The translations under genes were made by a program, and so were the position numbers. From Candidatus Omnitrophota bacterium (GTDB lineage: Bacteria > Omnitrophota > Gorgyraeia > Gygaellales > Gygaellaceae): 40,206 bases of DNA. Position 1 is the stretch's first letter; every line of letters starts with the position of its first letter. The notes beneath the pieces were generated by a model that was not told where the DNA came from, searched no databases, and saw only the letters and a program-made list of their open reading frames with translations. Positions 5,094 through 25,395 of the stretch are shown piece by piece. The stretch covers positions 1-40,206 of the forward strand of contig JAGYNB010000007.1 in NCBI GenBank assembly GCA_018400015.1. The letters run 5' to 3'.

Positions 5094-6197
5094 ATGGCAC
5101 AGGTTAGTTTAAGAGATGTAAGCAAAATTTACCCGCCTGATGTAAAGGCGGTTGATAATGTTCGATTCGGAGTAGAGAATAAGGAATTCATGGTTCTTTT
5201 AGGCCCCTCTGGTTGCGGTAAGTCCACAACCCTCAGGATGATCGCCGGTTTAGAAGATATCACCAAAGGCGATATATTTATTGCCGATAAGCGGGTTAAT
5301 AATATTCCTGCAAAGGACCGTAATATCGCCATGGTTTTCCAGAACTATGCACTCTATCCGCATATGACCGTATTTGAAAATATGGCCTTTGGCTTGAAGC
5401 TTCGTAAGTATCCAAAATCAGAGATCATTTCCAGAGTCCATGAGGCAGCGGATATTTTAGGATTAAAAAAGTATTTGGACAGAAAACCAAAAAAGCTCTC
5501 CGGTGGTGAGCGTCAGCGTGTTGCCGTAGGGCGTGCAATCGTGAGAAAACCCACTGTATTTTTATTTGATGAACCTTTAAGCAATCTTGATGCGAAGCTG
5601 CGTGTGCAGATGAGAACAGAACTTAATAAACTGCATTTGCGCCTTCAGACCACGATGATTTACGTCACCCACGATCAGACCGAAGCTATGACTATGGGTA
5701 ATAGAATTGCGGTTATGAAAGGTGGCACACTTCAGCAGCTGGCAGACCCGTTGACTATATATGATAAGCCTACGAATAAATTCGTTGCCGGTTTTTTAGG
5801 TACACCTCCGATGAATTTTTTAAATGGGAAAATATTAAAGAAAGAAAGCAGGCTTTATTTTGATGAGGGAAAATTCCAGGTTAAGGTAAATGAGAAGATG
5901 TACAAAAAACTTGACGGATATGTTGGCAAAGATATTGTTTTCGGTGTAAGACCGGAAGATATATATGATAAACTTTTTACTTCTCAGCCAGCAGCTGAAA
6001 ATATAATTAGGGTCAATTGTGAAGTGGTTGAGCCAATGGGTTCGGAAGTATATCTACATCTTAATACGGGATTGCATCAGTTTATTGCTAGAGTTGGTTC
6101 ACATAATCGACCGCCTATAAACCAAGAAATGGATCTTGTAATCGACATGAGCAAGGTACATTTCTTTGATAAAGAGACCGAATCGGCAATTGTTTAG
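5094..6197 (+). CDS. Sugar ABC transporter ATP-binding protein (UgpC/MalK/MsmX family)
   Basis: ATPase subunit of a CUT1-type carbohydrate importer, expected at the inner face of the cytoplasmic membrane. The 367 residues contain Walker A GPSGCGKS (37-44), the Q-loop in VFQNYALYPH, signature LSGGERQ (135-141), Walker B FLFDEP (156-161) and the switch His 193 in THDQTEA. A C-terminal MalK-like OB-fold regulatory half follows (from about 235), with GVRPEDI. No permease or binding-protein gene is nearby, so it may serve several permeases as MsmX does in Bacillus; that is inference. Its stop lies inside the start region of the first diguanylate cyclase gene. Confidence 0.93.
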   Translation: MAQVSLRDVSKIYPPDVKAVDNVRFGVENKEFMVLLGPSGCGKSTTLRMIAGLEDITKGDIFIADKRVNNIPAKDRNIAMVFQNYALYPHMTVFENMAFGLKLRKYPKSEIISRVHEAADILGLKKYLDRKPKKLSGGERQRVAVGRAIVRKPTVFLFDEPLSNLDAKLRVQMRTELNKLHLRLQTTMIYVTHDQTEAMTMGNRIAVMKGGTLQQLADPLTIYDKPTNKFVAGFLGTPPMNFLNGKILKKESRLYFDEGKFQVKVNEKMYKKLDGYVGKDIVFGVRPEDIYDKLFTSQPAAENIIRVNCEVVEPMGSEVYLHLNTGLHQFIARVGSHNRPPINQEMDLVIDMSKVHFFDKETESAIV

Positions 6198-7437
6198 AGC
6201 AAAGGATAAAACCCTTTTTATCCTTATTACGTTTTCTTGCCTTTTGACCATACTGGTTACATTTAAAAAGGCCAATCATGAAGTTTACTTTTTATCTGGT
6301 TTGTATCTGATTTTGGCTGTTTTTATCCTCACAAGAAGAAACTTCATTTTAAAAAAAGAAATTCCGCTTTCATTAAACCTCGAAAAAATAGCAGAAAAAA
6401 TAAATCTTTTAAGAATCAATAATTCCGATGTTGTTAATTACAATAATTCTGTAAGAAACAGAATCGCCAATTATCAGGCATTGGGAAAAATTCAAGAAGA
6501 GTTGTCTTCTGCAAATACTGTTGATGAAGTTACCTCCATTATTGCCGAAGCAGCCTGTAGCCTATTGTCAAAATCAAGGGCAAGATGTTTGGTTTATCTG
6601 GTGTCGCAAAAAGATCAAAGACTAACGCTTGCAAAATCAAAACCAAATGAGAAGAATTCAAAGAAAACCTACAATCCGGATTTATTTGATGAATGGGTAA
6701 TGGTCAAGATGGCTCCTTTGTTGGTTTCTAATATTGATGATGATTTCCGCTTTGATAAAGATAAAATAATAAGTTCTAAGAATGTTTCGTCTCTTATAAG
6801 CGCTCCTTTAATGCGTAAGGATCGTTTCTTAGGGATAATTAGGTTGGATAGCGCAGAAAATAATTTATTCAGCCAGGAGGATTTACGTATTCTTGATACT
6901 TTGGCGGATCTATCCATGATTTCACTTGAAAATGCGATTTTGTTTACGGAAATGGAAAGGCTATCTTTACAGGATGGCCTAACCGGATTTTATTTAAGAA
7001 GATACACGGATATTATTCTGGAGGGGTGTTTTGCAAAGGCAAAGGACAAAAAAGAGTCTTTCAGCGTGGCGATGATAGACGTAAACGACTTTAAGCTTTG
7101 TAATGATAATTACGGTCATATTGCCGGAGATATGGTTTTAAAAAATATCAGCATGTGGCTGAAGGAAACCCTTTTGCAAAAAGGCATTGTTATCGGGCGT
7201 TTTGGCGGAGACGAGTTTATTGTTATTGCTTCGGATTTTAAGAAGCAGCAACTGGAGGATCTATTGTTTGAAGTAAGAGATAAAATAAAAATGCAGACAT
7301 TAATGCTGCGCAAACAGGAAATAATGATTGATATTTCTTTTGGCGTTGCCGAATACGGTCAGAAATTCGGTTCTGCGCATGAATTGATCGCCTTAGCTGA
7401 TAAAAGGCTTTATGCGATGAAAAAAAACAATAAATGA
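6166..7437 (+). CDS. Membrane GAF-GGDEF diguanylate cyclase
   Basis: Predicted enzyme making cyclic di-GMP from two GTP. Two transmembrane segments (about residues 17-33 and 38-56) precede a GAF-like sensor domain (about 105-260). The catalytic GGDEF domain follows, with DGLTGFYLRR at about 270-279 and an intact GGDEF at 347-351. The inhibitory RxxD I-site nine residues before GGDEF is absent (QKGI), so product inhibition at that site is not expected. The start is uncertain: TTG at 6166 has aagg nine bases upstream, while TTG at 6190 would remove eight residues. Either way the gene overlaps the ABC ATPase. It overlaps the next cyclase by 4 bases. Confidence 0.9.
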   Translation: MIKRPNRQLFRAKDKTLFILITFSCLLTILVTFKKANHEVYFLSGLYLILAVFILTRRNFILKKEIPLSLNLEKIAEKINLLRINNSDVVNYNNSVRNRIANYQALGKIQEELSSANTVDEVTSIIAEAACSLLSKSRARCLVYLVSQKDQRLTLAKSKPNEKNSKKTYNPDLFDEWVMVKMAPLLVSNIDDDFRFDKDKIISSKNVSSLISAPLMRKDRFLGIIRLDSAENNLFSQEDLRILDTLADLSMISLENAILFTEMERLSLQDGLTGFYLRRYTDIILEGCFAKAKDKKESFSVAMIDVNDFKLCNDNYGHIAGDMVLKNISMWLKETLLQKGIVIGRFGGDEFIVIASDFKKQQLEDLLFEVRDKIKMQTLMLRKQEIMIDISFGVAEYGQKFGSAHELIALADKRLYAMKKNNK

Positions 7438-8435
7438 TAATTTATTCCGTTGTGATTTTTCAGGTAATTGCGATGATAATCTTTTTTGAACGGATTATGC
7501 GCAGCAATCTAAATAAGTTTTATCAGAAATATGATTTACTCGTTAAGCAGATAAATGAGTTAACCAATAAGTCAGCTTTATTAGAAGATGAAAAAAAACA
7601 GCTTGAGCATAATGAGCAGCATATTTCTGCGATATATGAAATGGGGAAATCTTTTGTTAGGCAAATAAAAGAAGAGGATCTTGTTTATATACTCAAGGAA
7701 CAGCTCGAACATAATCATATATCTTTTAGCCGGTTAAGGCTAGAGGATGATTTATCCGATATCGTTTATTCTAAAGATAAAGAGGTTTTTTCTTTGATTG
7801 CCCAGAATGAAAAACTCGGTTATCTGGTCATTGAAGGTTTGGATGAAGAATATGTCCAAGATATAAATATATTGTCAAAGCGCCTAGCTTTAAGCATAAG
7901 GCGTTTTCATCTTTATAGGGGAGTTCAACAACTTGCCATAACCGATTCATTGACAGGCACTTTAAGCCGTAATTATTGTTTAGAGAGGCTGGATAAGGAA
8001 CTCGCTAGGGCTAGGAAATTCAGTTTCAGCTTATCTGTTGCCATGCTCGATCTGGATAATTTTAAAACCTATAATGATAAATACGGACATATTTCCGGAG
8101 ATAAGATTTTAAAAGAACTGTCATTAATCATGAGACAGTCTTTAAGAAACGTTGATTTTATCGGCAGATACGGGGGGGAAGAGTTTCTTTTAGTCATGCC
8201 TGAGGCGAGTTCCAAAGGCGCGAAGTTTGCTTTGGAGCGTATCAGAAGCCAGATTGCTTCTCATGCGGTAGATTTATTTAAAGACAGGGTTAATCTTACG
8301 GTAAGCGTGGGTATTGCTTCTTTTCCAGCTGACAGTGAAGCCTTTTCTGACTTGATAGAAAAAGCTGATAAGGCTTTGTATATATCCAAAAAAAGCGGAA
8401 AGAATAAAGTAATTTTGTTCAGTTCACAAAAATAA
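7434..8435 (+). CDS. GGDEF diguanylate cyclase with I-site and coiled coil
   Basis: Second predicted c-di-GMP synthase, 333 residues. One N-terminal membrane anchor (about 2-18) leads to a charged, probably coiled-coil stretch (about 25-80). A degenerate GAF-like region follows (about 85-160), then the GGDEF domain with DSLTGTLSRN and GGEEF at 247-251, an active variant of the motif. RNVD at 238-241 fits the RxxD inhibitory I-site, unlike the preceding cyclase. The ATGA overlap with that gene implies coupled translation of both enzymes. The nearest visible c-di-GMP target is the riboswitch about 7 kb downstream. Confidence 0.92.
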   Translation: MIIYSVVIFQVIAMIIFFERIMRSNLNKFYQKYDLLVKQINELTNKSALLEDEKKQLEHNEQHISAIYEMGKSFVRQIKEEDLVYILKEQLEHNHISFSRLRLEDDLSDIVYSKDKEVFSLIAQNEKLGYLVIEGLDEEYVQDINILSKRLALSIRRFHLYRGVQQLAITDSLTGTLSRNYCLERLDKELARARKFSFSLSVAMLDLDNFKTYNDKYGHISGDKILKELSLIMRQSLRNVDFIGRYGGEEFLLVMPEASSKGAKFALERIRSQIASHAVDLFKDRVNLTVSVGIASFPADSEAFSDLIEKADKALYISKKSGKNKVILFSSQK

Positions 8436-15347: not shown

Positions 15348-15376
15348 TTGAAAAACCTTAAAATCCGTGTTATACT
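15348..15376 (+). promoter_or_regulatory. Promoter P1 for the riboswitch-pilin transcript
   Basis: TTGAAA (15348-15353), 17-base spacer, TATACT (15371-15376). It starts 7 bases after the UDP-xylose synthase stop codon. Transcription from about 15383 would place the aptamer close to the 5' end of the RNA, as expected for a riboswitch. Confidence 0.75.
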
Positions 15377-15404
15377 TTTAATAGATAATTAGGAAAGTTA
15401 AATT

Positions 15405-15515
15405 CGCATGACGCGAAGCCGCAAAGTTTGCGGCGGCAAACCCATTCGTAAGATGGGGACGCAAAGCTAAAGGGCCTTATAAATAGATTTAATCATAAGG
15501 TAGCCAGTTGCCTAA
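15405..15515 (+). promoter_or_regulatory. Cyclic di-GMP-I (GEMM) riboswitch aptamer
   Basis: The conserved class I landmarks occur in order: GGCAAACC (15435-15442), a hairpin CCCAT/ATGGG capped by a GTAA tetraloop (15448-15451), GGGACGCAAAGC (15456-15467), a second arm CCTTAT/ATAAGG (15475-15480 with 15495-15500), and GGTAGCCAGTTGCC to 15512. The base equivalent to G20 of the Vibrio Vc2 aptamer is G (15436) and the C92 equivalent is C (15511). Both fit c-di-GMP, whereas an A at G20 would suggest the cGAMP-binding GEMM-Ib type. An unusual extra perfect 8-base inverted repeat (15418-15425/15427-15434) interrupts the 5' strand. I could not draw a convincing outer P1 helix. Confidence 0.9.
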
Positions 15516-15524
15516 AGTAATGTG

Positions 15525-15560
15525 ACCTATTCCTGCGAAGGGAATAGGTTTTTTCGTTTT
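15525..15560 (+). terminator. Intrinsic terminator: riboswitch expression platform
   Basis: A perfect 9-base stem, acctattcc (15525-15533) with ggaataggt (15541-15549), has a 7-base loop and is followed by ttttttcgtttt. It lies 12 bases after the aptamer and about 190 bases before the pilin start, so it is the likely switchable element. I could not identify a clear antiterminator by eye, so whether c-di-GMP turns the gene on or off is unknown. Confidence 0.85.
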
Positions 15561-15572
15561 TAAAGGTTTTTC

Positions 15573-15601
15573 TTGACAAGAAGGGAGGTCTTGAATAAAA
15601 T
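15573..15601 (+). promoter_or_regulatory. Promoter P2, downstream of the riboswitch terminator
   Basis: TTGACA (15573-15578), 17-base spacer, TAAAAT (15596-15601): a near-consensus promoter. A transcript from about 15608 would carry the pilin gene without the aptamer and terminator. The stretch from here to the pilin start (15602-15746) holds only a weak inverted repeat (ttagca 15650-15655 with tgctaa 15681-15686) and no gene I can support. Confidence 0.6.
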
Positions 15602-15746
15602 AAATAGTAATGAGGTAGGACTTGGCGCAATAAGTGTAATTGCTTAATTTTAGCAGAAAAAAAGGTATTATAATAAATCTTGCTAAATGAGTAGTTGCAA
15701 AAAAGCGCAAGATCTAATCAGCCTCAGAAAGGGGGCGCAAAAGAAA

Positions 15747-16172
15747 ATGAGAAACAGAAAAGGTTTTACATTAGTCGAAATCATGATCGTTGTGGCAATT
15801 ATAGCATTGTTGGTCGCTATAGCCGTTCCTAATATCGCTGCCCAGCGTAGAATCGCTAATAACTCAGCAGCAGCAGGTAACTTAAGAAGTCTTCTTTCCG
15901 TATTGGAAACTTACAATACAGCAGAAGGAGAGTATCCTGCAGCTTTGAGTTCTTTAACTGACGGCACTAATCCGTATATCAGTACAGTTCCAACAGGTAC
16001 TGCCGGAGGTTATGTTTGGACTTCAACACCTGCAACAACTGGTTATACTTTACAAGCATGTCCAAGCACAACTTCAACAGGTATTTACTGCTGGAGAATC
16101 CGTACAGGCGGTATTATGGAAAGATGTTCTACTTCAGGTACAAGTTGTTCAACTTACACAACTCAGTATTAA
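15747..16172 (+). CDS. Type IV pilin (major pilin-like prepilin)
   Basis: A 141-residue prepilin with a six-residue leader MRNRKG cleaved before Phe 7. The classic N-methyl Phe helix FTLVEIMIVVAIIALLVAIA follows, including the conserved Glu at mature position 5. The globular part is small and Gly/Ser/Thr-rich, with four cysteines (105, 115, 127, 134) that could form two disulfides. I chose the ATG at 15747, with aaaggggg 12 bases upstream. A longer frame from 15687 would put 20 extra residues before the leader and lacks a binding site. The gene is flanked by a riboswitch and a terminator, so it is monocistronic and probably the abundant subunit. A type II pseudopilin is the alternative. Confidence 0.92.
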   Translation: MRNRKGFTLVEIMIVVAIIALLVAIAVPNIAAQRRIANNSAAAGNLRSLLSVLETYNTAEGEYPAALSSLTDGTNPYISTVPTGTAGGYVWTSTPATTGYTLQACPSTTSTGIYCWRIRTGGIMERCSTSGTSCSTYTTQY

Positions 16173-16197: not shown

Positions 16198-16231
16198 AAG
16201 GCGGTACCCGTAAAAAGGTATCGCCTTTTTT
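16198..16231 (+). terminator. Intrinsic terminator after the pilin gene
   Basis: An 11-pair stem (16198-16208 with 16217-16227, one G-T pair) encloses an 8-base loop and ends in a T run to 16231. It isolates the pilin message from the following glycosyltransferase gene. Confidence 0.85.
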
Positions 16232-21060: not shown

Positions 21061-21291
21061 TTGTCAAAGGCAAAATTAAATATAAAGGTGTTATTAATTA
21101 TACTGGTTATCTTTATTGTTTTGACGTTAGTTATAACAACTAATCTTTTAAATAGCGATAAAAAAATAACAGTTACTGATGTCAAAGGCGATAAAAGCAA
21201 GATTCAATCTATTCAATCGGACCCTACAGGTGACGAATCGGAATTAGAAGTAGAGTTTGAAGAGAAACTCCAAGGACCATTGATTCAATAA
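21061..21291 (+). CDS. Small single-pass membrane protein in the pilus operon, unknown
   Basis: I do not recognise this 76-residue protein. It has one membrane segment (about 9-27, VLLIILVIFIVLTLVIT) and an acidic, probably extracytoplasmic C-terminal tail (DESELEVEFEEK). The start is TTG at 21061. It is well supported by aaggagg at about 21048-21056 and by a 1-base overlap of its stop with the pilM start. No FTLVE signature is present, so it is not an ordinary prepilin. Its place between the PilX-like gene and pilM suggests a membrane accessory of the pilus machine; function unknown. Confidence 0.7.
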   Translation: MSKAKLNIKVLLIILVIFIVLTLVITTNLLNSDKKITVTDVKGDKSKIQSIQSDPTGDESELEVEFEEKLQGPLIQ

Positions 21292-22286
21292 TGTCAAAAC
21301 AAAATAAAAAGATTATCGGCTTAGATCTAGGCAGTGCATTTATGAAGATATCCAAAGCAAGCTTTACGGATGTTATCACTTTGGATTCTTGTAAAATATT
21401 ATCTTTACATAATGGAAACAAAATAAATCATGATACTTTAAAGAATTTAATCGGCGAGAAAGATTTTTCCGGGTATAGGTTTATTACTTCTTTGCAGGGG
21501 CAGGGCATTGTTATCAGGTATTTGTTTTTGCCTAAGATCAATAAAGATGAGCTTAAGAGTGCTTTGAAATTCGAGCTTGAAAAGAATATCCCTTTCTCAA
21601 TCGATGATGTGGTTACGGATGGTCAGGTTATAAAAGAGCTTGATGATAAGATATTGGTTTTGGCAGTTGCAGCAAAAAAGAATTTCGTACAAGACCATAT
21701 TGATAGTTTGGCTAAAATGGGCATAAATCCTAGTATTGTTGATATTACAAGTACTGCCTTAGCGAATTCTTTTAGTTTTGCCGCATTAAAGGATAAAAAT
21801 CAGGTATGCGCATTGCTTAATTTAGGAAGTAATTTTACAAATTTGACGATCTTAAAAGACGATATCCCTTATTTTAACAGGGATATTCCTATTGGTTCTT
21901 CCCAATTTGATAAAAAAGTTTCTGAAAGTTTCGGTGTAGGGATTGAGCAGGCAGAAAAGATGAGGATAAATCCTGTTGAAAAAGGCGATCAGGTATTTAA
22001 GACTTACGAGTCGGTAATCGAAGACCTTATTGCAGAGATAAAATTTTCTTTTGATTATTTTGAAAATAAAGAAGATGCCGGTATCCAGGAAATTTACTTA
22101 AGCGGTGGCGTAGCTCAATCGGATAGTTTAAAAGATGTTTTAAAGACTGCATTGAATATGGAATGCAAAGTATGGGATCCTGTCGCGCCATTTAAGAAAT
22201 CCGATTTGTTTGAGATAGATTCTCAGTTGGGTAATGGAGTTTATGGTGTGAGTTTAGGGTTGGTTTTAAGAGGCAGAGATGATTAA
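21291..22286 (+). CDS. pilM: Type IV pilus assembly ATPase-fold protein PilM
   Basis: A 331-residue actin-like cytoplasmic protein. It opens with the phosphate-binding motif IIGLDLGSAFMKI (8-20) and has a second ATP-fold motif EIYLSGGVAQS near residue 268. Known PilM binds the cytoplasmic N terminus of PilN and anchors the inner-membrane alignment complex. The following gene encodes a protein with the expected N-terminal motif, which supports the call. It overlaps the small membrane protein gene by 1 base and pilN by 8 bases. Confidence 0.92.
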   Translation: MSKQNKKIIGLDLGSAFMKISKASFTDVITLDSCKILSLHNGNKINHDTLKNLIGEKDFSGYRFITSLQGQGIVIRYLFLPKINKDELKSALKFELEKNIPFSIDDVVTDGQVIKELDDKILVLAVAAKKNFVQDHIDSLAKMGINPSIVDITSTALANSFSFAALKDKNQVCALLNLGSNFTNLTILKDDIPYFNRDIPIGSSQFDKKVSESFGVGIEQAEKMRINPVEKGDQVFKTYESVIEDLIAEIKFSFDYFENKEDAGIQEIYLSGGVAQSDSLKDVLKTALNMECKVWDPVAPFKKSDLFEIDSQLGNGVYGVSLGLVLRGRDD

Positions 22287-22830
22287 AATAAATATTTTAC
22301 CAGATGAACTGAGGATAAAAACACAGGCGTATGCTTTGCCAAAGGATACGATGGTAAAGGTTTCTTTTTTTGCCGTATCTTTCTTGGTGGGTGTGCATTT
22401 GATTTTATTGTTAGTAACTATTTTTAAGTTTTTTGTTGTTTCCGGCTATGAAAGTAAACTCCCCGGGCTTGAACCGAAAATAGTTTACCTTGAAAGCATA
22501 AAGAAAGAGTTGAATGTCTTAGAATCAAAGACAAAAGTTATTGATGAATTGGCCAGAAAAAATACTCCTTGGTCTGTTTGTCTATACAAATTGAGCAAGA
22601 ATTTACCTTCCGGTATTTGGTTCGAACAGCTTATTCTAAAAGATGAATTATTTACCGTAACTGGGAAGGTTGTTTCTCGTTCAGATAATGATTTGTCTGT
22701 ATTAAATGTATATTTAAACCGTATAAACCAGGACCCGAGATTCAGGTCTGTTAAATTGTCCGATATCAAAAAGACGGTATTTCGTAATCAGGAAGTCACG
22801 ACTTTTTCGATTAGAGGGATGCTGCAATGA
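22279..22830 (+). CDS. pilN: Type IV pilus inner-membrane protein PilN
   Basis: A 183-residue bitopic protein. It begins MIKINILPDELR, the INLLP-type motif that docks into PilM. One transmembrane helix follows (about 30-53) and then a periplasmic domain with a coiled stretch (KKELNVLESKTKVIDELA). The periplasmic part shows the PilN-type LPSGIWFEQL. PilN pairs with PilO to link PilM to the secretin. It overlaps pilM and pilO by 8 and 4 bases. Confidence 0.9.
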   Translation: MIKINILPDELRIKTQAYALPKDTMVKVSFFAVSFLVGVHLILLLVTIFKFFVVSGYESKLPGLEPKIVYLESIKKELNVLESKTKVIDELARKNTPWSVCLYKLSKNLPSGIWFEQLILKDELFTVTGKVVSRSDNDLSVLNVYLNRINQDPRFRSVKLSDIKKTVFRNQEVTTFSIRGMLQ

Positions 22831-23459
22831 TTAAAAAAGTAGAATTAATAAATAAGATTAAGCCATACATGAAAAAAGTTTTAGATTTTTATGCTAAAAT
22901 TGATTTCAAATATAAAGATTTGGCTTTAGTTTTTATAGCGGGTTTATTGGTTTTAATTCTTGATTACAGCCTTATTTTAAGTAGGCAGATGCATCTTTTA
23001 GGAAATCTTAATAAAAAATATTCTGAGTATAAGGAAAAGATATCTCTAGCTGATGATTCAAGCTCAAGAGTAGAAAGTTTTCAGAACAGAAGAAAAAGTT
23101 TAAAAGAAAAAGCTGAGCAGTTTGCAAAAGAAATCATTACCGAATCGCAGATTTCCGGTTTGATCGAGGATATAGAGCTATGCGCCAAAGATGAATTTGT
23201 CAGGATCTCTTATATTAAACCGACCGAGTTGGTTAAATCTGCTAAGCCTGTCAGTAGTGAGTATTCCTTTTCTACGTTAGGAATACATATTGAAGCTGTT
23301 GCCGGGTATCATCAGTTTGGTAAATTTGTTAATAGACTAGAACGTCTTAATTCGTTTATAACCGTAAAGGAGCTTAGCATTGCTTCTAATTCCTCTAGCA
23401 ATTTAAGGCATAATATTAAGTTTTTATTAAATGTGTTTATAAAAATGCCCAAGACATGA
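22827..23459 (+). CDS. pilO: Type IV pilus inner-membrane protein PilO
   Basis: A 210-residue bitopic protein. One membrane helix (about 30-48, LALVFIAGLLVLILDYSLI) is followed by a coiled-coil stretch (KKYSEYKEKI to about 95) and a small ferredoxin-like periplasmic domain. GYHQFGKFVNRLERLNSFI near residues 155-173 is typical of PilO. It partners PilN. The identification rests on this motif plus exact operon position. The gene overlaps pilN and pilP by 4 bases each. Confidence 0.9.
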   Translation: MIKKVELINKIKPYMKKVLDFYAKIDFKYKDLALVFIAGLLVLILDYSLILSRQMHLLGNLNKKYSEYKEKISLADDSSSRVESFQNRRKSLKEKAEQFAKEIITESQISGLIEDIELCAKDEFVRISYIKPTELVKSAKPVSSEYSFSTLGIHIEAVAGYHQFGKFVNRLERLNSFITVKELSIASNSSSNLRHNIKFLLNVFIKMPKT

Positions 23460-23815
23460 AAAAAATATTGGCTGTAATTCTATTTCTAGGTTTATTTATC
23501 AACGCTGTATTTTTGTTTGCCGAAGATGGCAGTTTTATCTATAACTATGAAGGCCTAAGAGATCCTTTTTTTGTCCTTGTTGATGAAAGCGGCAGGATCA
23601 TTGATTTTGAGCCTAAGGGCGGGCTTTCTGAGATTTATTTAGAAGGCATAATCTATGATGAAAATGGTGTTTCTCTTGCCGTAGTTAACTCAGAGATAGT
23701 TAAGGAGCAGGATGTGGTTGCTTCTTATGTTATAAAAAAAATTAAACCGAGTTCTTTGATTTTGATTAAAGACGCTCAGGAGATAGAAGTAAAATTAGAA
23801 AGAGAGGAAGAATGA
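23456..23815 (+). CDS. pilP: PilP-like pilus periplasmic protein
   Basis: A 119-residue secreted protein with a signal peptide (about 1-22) that lacks a clear lipobox cysteine, so it is probably not a lipoprotein as classical PilP is. YNYEGLRDPFFVLV near residues 28-41 is the PilP Y-x-x-x-G-RDPF motif. A small beta domain with LEGIIYDENG follows. PilP bridges PilN/PilO to the secretin N domains. It is shorter than typical PilP (about 170 residues). It overlaps the genes on both sides by 4 bases. Confidence 0.82.
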   Translation: MKKILAVILFLGLFINAVFLFAEDGSFIYNYEGLRDPFFVLVDESGRIIDFEPKGGLSEIYLEGIIYDENGVSLAVVNSEIVKEQDVVASYVIKKIKPSSLILIKDAQEIEVKLEREEE

Positions 23816-25395
23816 TTTTAAATAAAAATTTTAAAATTATCTCTGGTATATTATTAATAATATTTTTAGGGTTTTTTATGAATAAGGGTTTTACTCAAGG
23901 CGATGAAAATAAATCTTTCGGAAAGCTAGTTTCAATCGCTCCTGAAAACAGCTCAGGGGTACATGCTGGCAATATAACCCTTGATTTTAAAGATGCAGAT
24001 ATTCATAGCGTTTTTAAAGTTATTGCCTATAAAGCCGGAGTGAATATTGTTTCCAGTCCGGAAGTTGCCGGTACGGTAACCATTAAGCTGGCAGATGTAC
24101 CTTGGCGTAAGGCATTAGAAGTGATTCTAAAGACCCAGGGGCTTGCTTATGAAGAACAGGGTAATATTATTTTGATTGCTCCTTTGGAGATAATGACTGA
24201 GCAAAAGTTGAAGGAATCAGAGCTTTCGCAAATTCAACCTGTGCAGACAGAAGTTTTTGATTTGAAATTCTTGGATGCATTGGATGCAAAAAAAGCTTTG
24301 GAGGGTCAGCTTTCTTCTCGCGGTAAAATTACGGTTATGCACATGACTGGTCAGGCTGGGTGGGAGTTTGGAGGAATGGATACGACAAAGCGCGGTCGTG
24401 CCTCAGATGAAGTGATGGGCCGTTCTAAAGTGTTGATCGTAAGCGATATTCAGCCTAAACTGCAGAAAATAAAAGAGATCTTGCAGGAAATCGATGTTAT
24501 GCCTGAACAGATCTTAATAGAAACCAGGATCGTAGAGGTAAATCACGATAAGTTAAAAGATATTGGTTTTGATTTTGGTACTGGTTCTACCGGTGCAGAA
24601 TCATCCACCATAACCACGGTTCCGGTTAATAAATCAAACGGAGAACCACAATCAGTAGCAGGAGGTAATATGTTGGGTTCACAGGTTAGTCCTTCTGTTT
24701 TTGGCCCGAAAACTACCACTATTACAGGGACAACCCCTTTTAATTCAGGCCTGGAATTGGTTTTTCAAAAGCTTACCGGCACGCAGTTTCAAGCTATTCT
24801 TCATGCCGTAGAGGAAGATGTGCAGGCAAATGTATTGTCAGCTCCGCATATCTTAGCTTTGAACAACCAGGAAGCATCTATCATAATCGGAACAAAATAT
24901 CCGATTTTAAAATCTGAAATCAGTACTGAATCTGCAGGCCAAACCGTTACTTCAACCCTAGATTATTATCAGGATATTGGAATCCAACTTAATGTTGTTC
25001 CTCAGGTTAATAGAGATGGATATATAAATATGGTTGTTCATCCCGCAGTGACCAGTAAAAGCGGTGAAGTAGGAGATAATCGATATCCGATAATCGACAC
25101 CCGCGAAGCCGAAACCAGGGTTATCATAAAAGATAAGGAGACTATAGTTATTGGCGGATTGATTAAAACCGTTAAGAGCGAAGGCGTTATAGGAGTACCT
25201 TTTTTAAGACATATTCCCATACTTGGTTTTATTTTTGAACGTAAAACCAATGATTTGGAAAAAATAGATTTATTGATCTTTATTACAGCAAAGATCATAA
25301 AAGAAAAAGATTTCAGCAAAGAAAGCATAAAAAAGCTGGAGTCTCGCGTTGGCGTAAAACCTGTAGTGCAGGATAAAGCAATAAAACAAGATTAG
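23812..25395 (+). CDS. pilQ: Secretin (PilQ-like outer-membrane channel)
   Basis: A 527-residue secretin that would form the outer-membrane pore for the pilus. After a signal peptide (about 1-28) comes an STN/N0-like domain (ITLDFKDADIHSVFKVIAY, about 52-120), then N1-type repeats. The secretin core follows with SAPHILALNNQEASIIIG, VVPQVNRDGYINMVVHP, ETIVIGGLIKT and VPFLRHIPILGFIFERK. No AMIN domains are visible ahead of the N0 region, so it is shorter than proteobacterial PilQ. It closes the operon and is followed by a terminator. GspD of type II secretion is the alternative, but pilM-P next to it favours PilQ. Confidence 0.93.
   Translation: MILNKNFKIISGILLIIFLGFFMNKGFTQGDENKSFGKLVSIAPENSSGVHAGNITLDFKDADIHSVFKVIAYKAGVNIVSSPEVAGTVTIKLADVPWRKALEVILKTQGLAYEEQGNIILIAPLEIMTEQKLKESELSQIQPVQTEVFDLKFLDALDAKKALEGQLSSRGKITVMHMTGQAGWEFGGMDTTKRGRASDEVMGRSKVLIVSDIQPKLQKIKEILQEIDVMPEQILIETRIVEVNHDKLKDIGFDFGTGSTGAESSTITTVPVNKSNGEPQSVAGGNMLGSQVSPSVFGPKTTTITGTTPFNSGLELVFQKLTGTQFQAILHAVEEDVQANVLSAPHILALNNQEASIIIGTKYPILKSEISTESAGQTVTSTLDYYQDIGIQLNVVPQVNRDGYINMVVHPAVTSKSGEVGDNRYPIIDTREAETRVIIKDKETIVIGGLIKTVKSEGVIGVPFLRHIPILGFIFERKTNDLEKIDLLIFITAKIIKEKDFSKESIKKLESRVGVKPVVQDKAIKQD

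Follow-up and report, generated by a model that had tools for sequence, protein, structure and literature searches.

At the Omnitrophota locus analysed here, two RNA elements in series probably determine the output of the major type IV pilin gene pilA, and not c-di-GMP alone. The reading that we favour, with a little more than even confidence, is that two successive modules control pilA: a promoter (P1) with a c-di-GMP riboswitch and a terminator, and then a second promoter (P2) with a structured leader RNA, so that c-di-GMP would adjust the pilin and would not gate it. The window (the whole stretch of DNA analysed, 40,206 nucleotides) comes from a genome of 1.41 Mb in 69 contigs, placed in Omnitrophota by named relatives of the pilin. 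Its relevant features are as follows.

6166-7437 (+): GAF-GGDEF diguanylate cyclase with a GGDEF motif (domain and intact motif)
7434-8435 (+): GGDEF diguanylate cyclase with a GGEEF motif (domain and intact motif)
15348-15376 (+): predicted promoter P1, TTGAAA-17-TATACT with TG before the -10, sigma-70-like, conserved in the same-genus genome G001; would transcribe the riboswitch
15389-15393 (+): 5' strand (UUAGG) of the outer stem of the GEMM-I RNA, with the 3' strand CCUAA at 15511-15515; from folding and a two-sided change in G001
15403-15434 (+): two extra hairpins (UUCGC/GCGAA and GCCGCAA/UUGCGGC) within the A-rich 5' linker of the aptamer; both form in G001 too
15425-15515 (+): c-di-GMP-I (GEMM-I) aptamer as placed by RF01051 (56.1 bits)
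15524-15550 (+): intrinsic terminator that would end the riboswitch transcript; separate from the aptamer, with a T run behind it
15573-15601 (+): predicted promoter P2, TTGACA-17-TAAAAT (11/12 consensus matches), between the riboswitch terminator and the pilin
15609-15735 (+): pilA leader RNA, the structured 5' UTR of the P2 transcript (about 127 nt), ending at the Shine-Dalgarno (SD) site
15611-15615 (+): 5' strand (UGAGG) of the leader closing stem, pairing with CCUCA at 15722-15726
15722-15735 (+): CCUCA, the closing stem's 3' strand, together with the SD region GAAAGGGGG; an alternative partner of CCUC is GGGG of the SD
15747-16172 (+): pilA, type IV major pilin of 141 aa with an N_methyl domain match (PF07963)
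16198-16227 (+): terminator after pilA, which is monocistronic
21291-25395 (+): pilM, pilN, pilO, a small gene and the secretin, a separate downstream unit

A class I c-di-GMP riboswitch upstream of the pilin gene

The riboswitch upstream of the pilin is real and ordinary in kind. RF01051 (c-di-GMP-I) was the sole Rfam family detected by cmscan in the whole window (15425-15515, forward strand), with a score well above the gathering cut-off (56.1 vs. 35 bits, E 1.7e-8). The original prediction had called a class I c-di-GMP aptamer at this place and had named this Rfam search as the check; the match above the curated cut-off bears it out, and the motifs that it listed (GGCAAACC, a GTAA loop, GGGACGCAAAGC and GGTAGCC) are all present. 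The GEMM-I core is likewise complete (GGCAAAC, a GNRA-type tetraloop stem, GACGCAAAGC and GCC at the 3' end). The perfect 9-base terminator predicted behind the aptamer was also found, as a hairpin of nine perfect pairs (11 counting the end pairs) with a T run after it. In G001, the only other genome of the genus examined, the aptamer, the terminator and both promoters are kept and the pilin is 87% identical. The outer stem of the riboswitch RNA differs there on both sides (TTAGG/CCTAA in the window, GGTAA/TTACC in G001), with pairing retained.

The gene behind these elements is, as predicted, a monocistronic pilin gene, encoding an N-methyl type IV pilin and followed by its own terminator. 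Its start codon (15747) lies approximately 200 nt past the riboswitch terminator, with the second promoter between them. The proposal that the riboswitch heads a whole locus is not supported: the pilin ends in its own terminator, and the minor pilins and pilMNO/secretin genes belong to later units. The two cyclases noted 7 kb upstream are genuine GGDEF proteins with intact GGDEF/GGEEF motifs; they deserve no special weight, being two of the eight in the genome.

The 5' linker of the aptamer is unusual. In the order, the positions two and three bases ahead of the conserved GG are nearly always AA (142 of 149 GEMM-I sites). The window aptamer and its G001 ortholog do not have this AA at the usual place before GGCAAACC and carry the two hairpins there instead; in the window, an AAAG lies upstream of the inserted hairpins, which separate it from the GGCAAACC core. 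The earlier description of the aptamer was right about the motifs and overlooked this displacement of the linker AA. An aptamer with such a displaced linker may still be able to bind c-di-GMP, with uncertain affinity. The base before GCAAA is G (15435), presumably a ligand-contacting position, and points to the c-di-GMP rather than the cGAMP type. Elsewhere in the order, A replaces this G before GCAAA/GTAAA in 10 of 149 GEMM-I sites (e.g. L150, L152, L173, L194, L017, L026 and L228), which are possibly cGAMP-type variants. We rejected the idea that the inserted hairpins are a shared functional variant. The other disrupted-linker sites, L231 (G006:C15) and L243 (G028:C106), from two genera, carry inserts at the same place inside the aptamers, just before GGYAAAC; these are not independent support for a hairpin variant because they are REP-like, with a GTTAG motif.

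A conserved predicted promoter between the riboswitch and pilA

The survey covered 155 GEMM-I sites, found in the window's genome and in relatives of the same order. A P2-type promoter, defined as at least 10/12 consensus matches between aptamer and gene, was present at 11/11 GEMM-I sites preceding a type IV pilin vs. 6/141 other GEMM-I sites (6.5 expected from shuffling); the 11 loci are related to each other and hence do not represent 11 independent events. In the alignment of 47 leaders, an exact TTGACA lies upstream of 46, the spacer is 17 nt in 44, and TG precedes the -10 in 41 of those 44; the -10 ends 2-16 nt before the leader. P2 and the leader are also present at pilA loci without GEMM-I, indicating that GEMM-I is optional for pilA; within 450 nt upstream, the GEMM-I motif was found by pattern for 7/47 leaders, plus L039 by covariance model. 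As read from these loci, pilA genes as a rule have the predicted promoter; the riboswitch is a module added upstream of it in some cases and would be unable to gate all pilin transcription. Direct c-di-GMP control of the pilin, the central claim of the original prediction, is supported only in part. The aptamer, the terminator and the recurrence of GEMM-I upstream of pilA, at the same place and on the same strand, in several Omnitrophota families speak for it. The role of main switch is not supported, since a conserved promoter and leader follow the riboswitch and P2 would bypass the terminator. At many pilA loci (e.g. L276, L262 and L271), the spacer of P2 contains AAAGGAGGTG, which resembles a perfect Shine-Dalgarno/anti-16S sequence.

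GEMM-I is not a dedicated pilin regulon in the order, a possibility that was considered and rejected: only 11/155 sites directly precede a type IV pilin, and a few others precede class III-like pilins. A recurring target encodes a protein of approximately 400-580 aa that combines a membrane/export segment at its N terminus with a C39-peptidase-like domain (L164, L151, L142, L212 and others), and at L206 and L239 GEMM-I precedes RAYT-like Y1 transposase genes with a C-terminal membrane segment.

Direction of the riboswitch

The terminator is independent of the aptamer at all 11 pilA GEMM-I sites, and the aptamer's own 3' strand serves as a terminator arm in 38/142 other GEMM-I sites. The latter arrangement predicts a switch that is ON with ligand, and a separate terminator predicts OFF or no coupling. 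An ON switch acting through the aptamer 3' strand was rejected for the window, where terminator and aptamer do not overlap. A search for an antiterminator gave nothing above the chance level in the window (p 0.62), and significant ones were detected in two relatives only (L165 and L250). The predicted folds point weakly to an OFF switch as more likely than an ON switch. The window genome's only other GEMM-I site (L002 1501-1588, G000:C6:4570-4657) lies about 48 nt ahead of a cluster of short class III/Flp-like pilins (KKAQAVLEY, KKAQSFIEY); its terminator arm is inside the aptamer, which makes it a predicted ON switch, the type opposite to the pilA one.

A structured leader RNA specific to pilA

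The pilA leader is a more novel element at this locus than the riboswitch. The predicted start of the P2 transcript falls at the first base of the leader or a few bases away. Typically, UAAGGU at the 5' end of the leader pairs with ACCUUA adjoining the SD site. Inside, GACU pairs with AGUY, often GCGC with GCGC (outside the model), and ACCUCUU with AAGAGGU; this last stem closes a large loop, in which AGUUAUAAUU recurs.

A covariance model (R1) was built from 11 sequences, with the window element outside the seed; it matched the window leader with 35.7 bits (E 7e-5). Among 58 relatives, R1 matched exactly once in each of 23 genomes, always just upstream of pilA, and in 384 genomes of the phylum it gave 45 matches, 44 of them at pilA. 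The remaining match (G254:C3), away from any pilin, was rejected as chance and is gone with a second model (R2), built from 47 sequences. R2 gave 45 matches in 45 of the 384 genomes, all at the same pilA sites and directly upstream of the gene; the recovery of those sites is by construction, while the absence of other matches is not. The association with one gene is therefore constant (45/45 R2 matches at pilA). The model includes the SD site, which biases it to places before start codons in general, not to pilins in particular. No credible Rfam 15 family was found at the leader in the window and relatives searched, and sub-threshold PyrR and STnc550 matches near the pilin, obtained at a relaxed threshold, were rejected as chance. 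In open-licence papers, we found none on a structured pilA leader and none linking Omnitrophota with riboswitches.

Conserved secondary structure with covariation was found in the leader. In the 47-sequence alignment, which like the larger alignments in general was fitted to the model structure, 13/15 pairs change on both sides, and the covariation score was 0.450 vs. 0.222 in shuffled alignments (reached in 0/500). When the structure was slid along the alignment, the score was at most 0.128. Covariation was weaker in a seed-only MAFFT count (5/500 shuffles). Against dinucleotide shuffles, the mean folding z was -2.66 (-4.36 for the window). RNAalifold, run on the 47-sequence covariance-model alignment, returned only the anti-SD hairpin, and aligning 24 leaders with MAFFT yielded hardly any consensus structure because loop lengths vary.

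CCUUA (CCUCA in the window) can pair either with the 5' end of the leader or with GGAGG/GGGGG of the SD site, and the two pairings are mutually exclusive. The predicted energies of the two states differ by a median of 0.8 kcal/mol and lie within 3 kcal/mol in 38/47 leaders. The closing stem shows covariation; in the same alignment the anti-SD pairing hardly varies, with covariation not beyond shuffles, and no covariation was found for a shifted register of the alternative stem. The exclusive choice between the closing stem and a possible anti-SD hairpin suggests translational control. We infer this switch from complementarity and energy balance, given that neither the anti-SD pairing nor the shifted register covaries. 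It is conceivable, though doubtful, that the leader is a new riboswitch class or another signal-sensing RNA that controls major-pilin translation in Omnitrophota. In some lineages, where it lies downstream of a c-di-GMP riboswitch that has a promoter of its own, pilus production would then respond to two inputs.

A model of pilin control and its alternatives

In the model that we favour, in which P1 and P2 are sequence predictions, P1 would make a short RNA containing the GEMM-I aptamer and the non-overlapping terminator, both present in the window, and c-di-GMP, the presumed ligand, would set the amount of P1 read-through. Behind the terminator, the independent and conserved P2 would start most or all basal pilin transcription. 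The P2 transcript would open with the structured leader, whose covarying closing stem (UGAGG/CCUCA here, usually UAAGG/CCUUA) would leave the SD free; once a putative trigger opened this stem, CCUC/CCUU would pair with GGGG/GAGG of the SD and translation would be blocked. Read-through transcripts from P1 would carry the same leader, so that c-di-GMP would adjust pilin output and the leader would be the core conserved regulator.

An alternative in line with the original prediction is that P1 alone drives essentially all pilin transcription, gated by c-di-GMP via the terminator, with P2 a chance match or inactive. A GEMM-I aptamer and a terminator directly upstream of the gene and conserved in the genus, as well as the recurrence of GEMM-I before pilA across several families, are what this account expects. 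However, of the 47 pilA loci with a leader, 46 have P2, and most of these loci lack a GEMM-I motif in the 450 nt upstream, which makes their dependence on P2 probable. Among GEMM-I loci, P2 is specific to pilA. We regard exclusive control from P1 as unlikely. The opposite view, that the P1-GEMM-terminator unit leaves pilA unaffected and is a stand-alone RNA (a c-di-GMP sink or a trans-acting RNA, like Bdellovibrio merRNA) or a relic, fares somewhat better and is still improbable. The unit ends in its own terminator ahead of an independent promoter, the window has no better-than-chance antiterminator, the aptamer linker is atypical, and merRNA offers the precedent of a GEMM-I sRNA without a target gene (PMC3627812). 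Nevertheless, an RNA unrelated to pilA would not be expected to recur at the same place and strand before pilA in several families, and the pairing of the outer stem was kept through a two-sided change.

Tandem same-strand promoters with a regulated terminator between them could also interfere with each other: P1 read-through would pass over P2 and repress it, and c-di-GMP-induced termination would then raise the pilin. P1 is, however, no closer to consensus than P2 (10/12 vs. 11/12 matches), and we consider interference very unlikely.

Comparison with known systems

Class I c-di-GMP riboswitches are usually taken as direct switches of the next gene. The conserved promoter behind the terminator means that this reading can mislead. 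With the leader, the locus also offers a candidate regulatory RNA dedicated to the major pilin; at 127 nt and with 47 examples aligned, it is compact and lends itself to testing how a mostly uncultured phylum sets its pilus output.

With RF01051 and its variants RF03167 and RF03168, the window shares an above-cut-off score, the core motifs and a terminator platform. In relatives, the best-scoring model for the pilA-linked sites is RF01051, RF03167 (GGC) or RF03168 (UAU), with scores slightly below the cut-off for the last two. Unlike the usual GEMM-I, the window has two hairpins in the A-rich linker and an independent promoter between terminator and gene. The pilA leader resembles translational riboswitches and SD-sequestering leaders in that its closing stem excludes a hairpin over the SD site, and it differs from the known SD-sequestering leaders in matching no Rfam 15 family.

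In Clostridioides difficile, the c-di-GMP-II riboswitch Cdi-2-4 and a terminator lie upstream of the major type IV pilin gene pilA1 and form an ON switch (PMC6366702). The placement of a c-di-GMP riboswitch and terminator before a major type IV pilin is the likeness; Cdi-2-4 differs in being class II and ON, and the text reviewed mentions no combination of a second promoter and a leader there (PMC6366702). Bdellovibrio merRNA, a massively expressed 445-nt RNA with a GEMM-I aptamer and no conserved ORF downstream, is similar in carrying the aptamer within a self-contained transcript (PMC3627812). By contrast, GEMM-I loci of the window's type have a conserved gene downstream, which is pilA in 11/11 of those surveyed.
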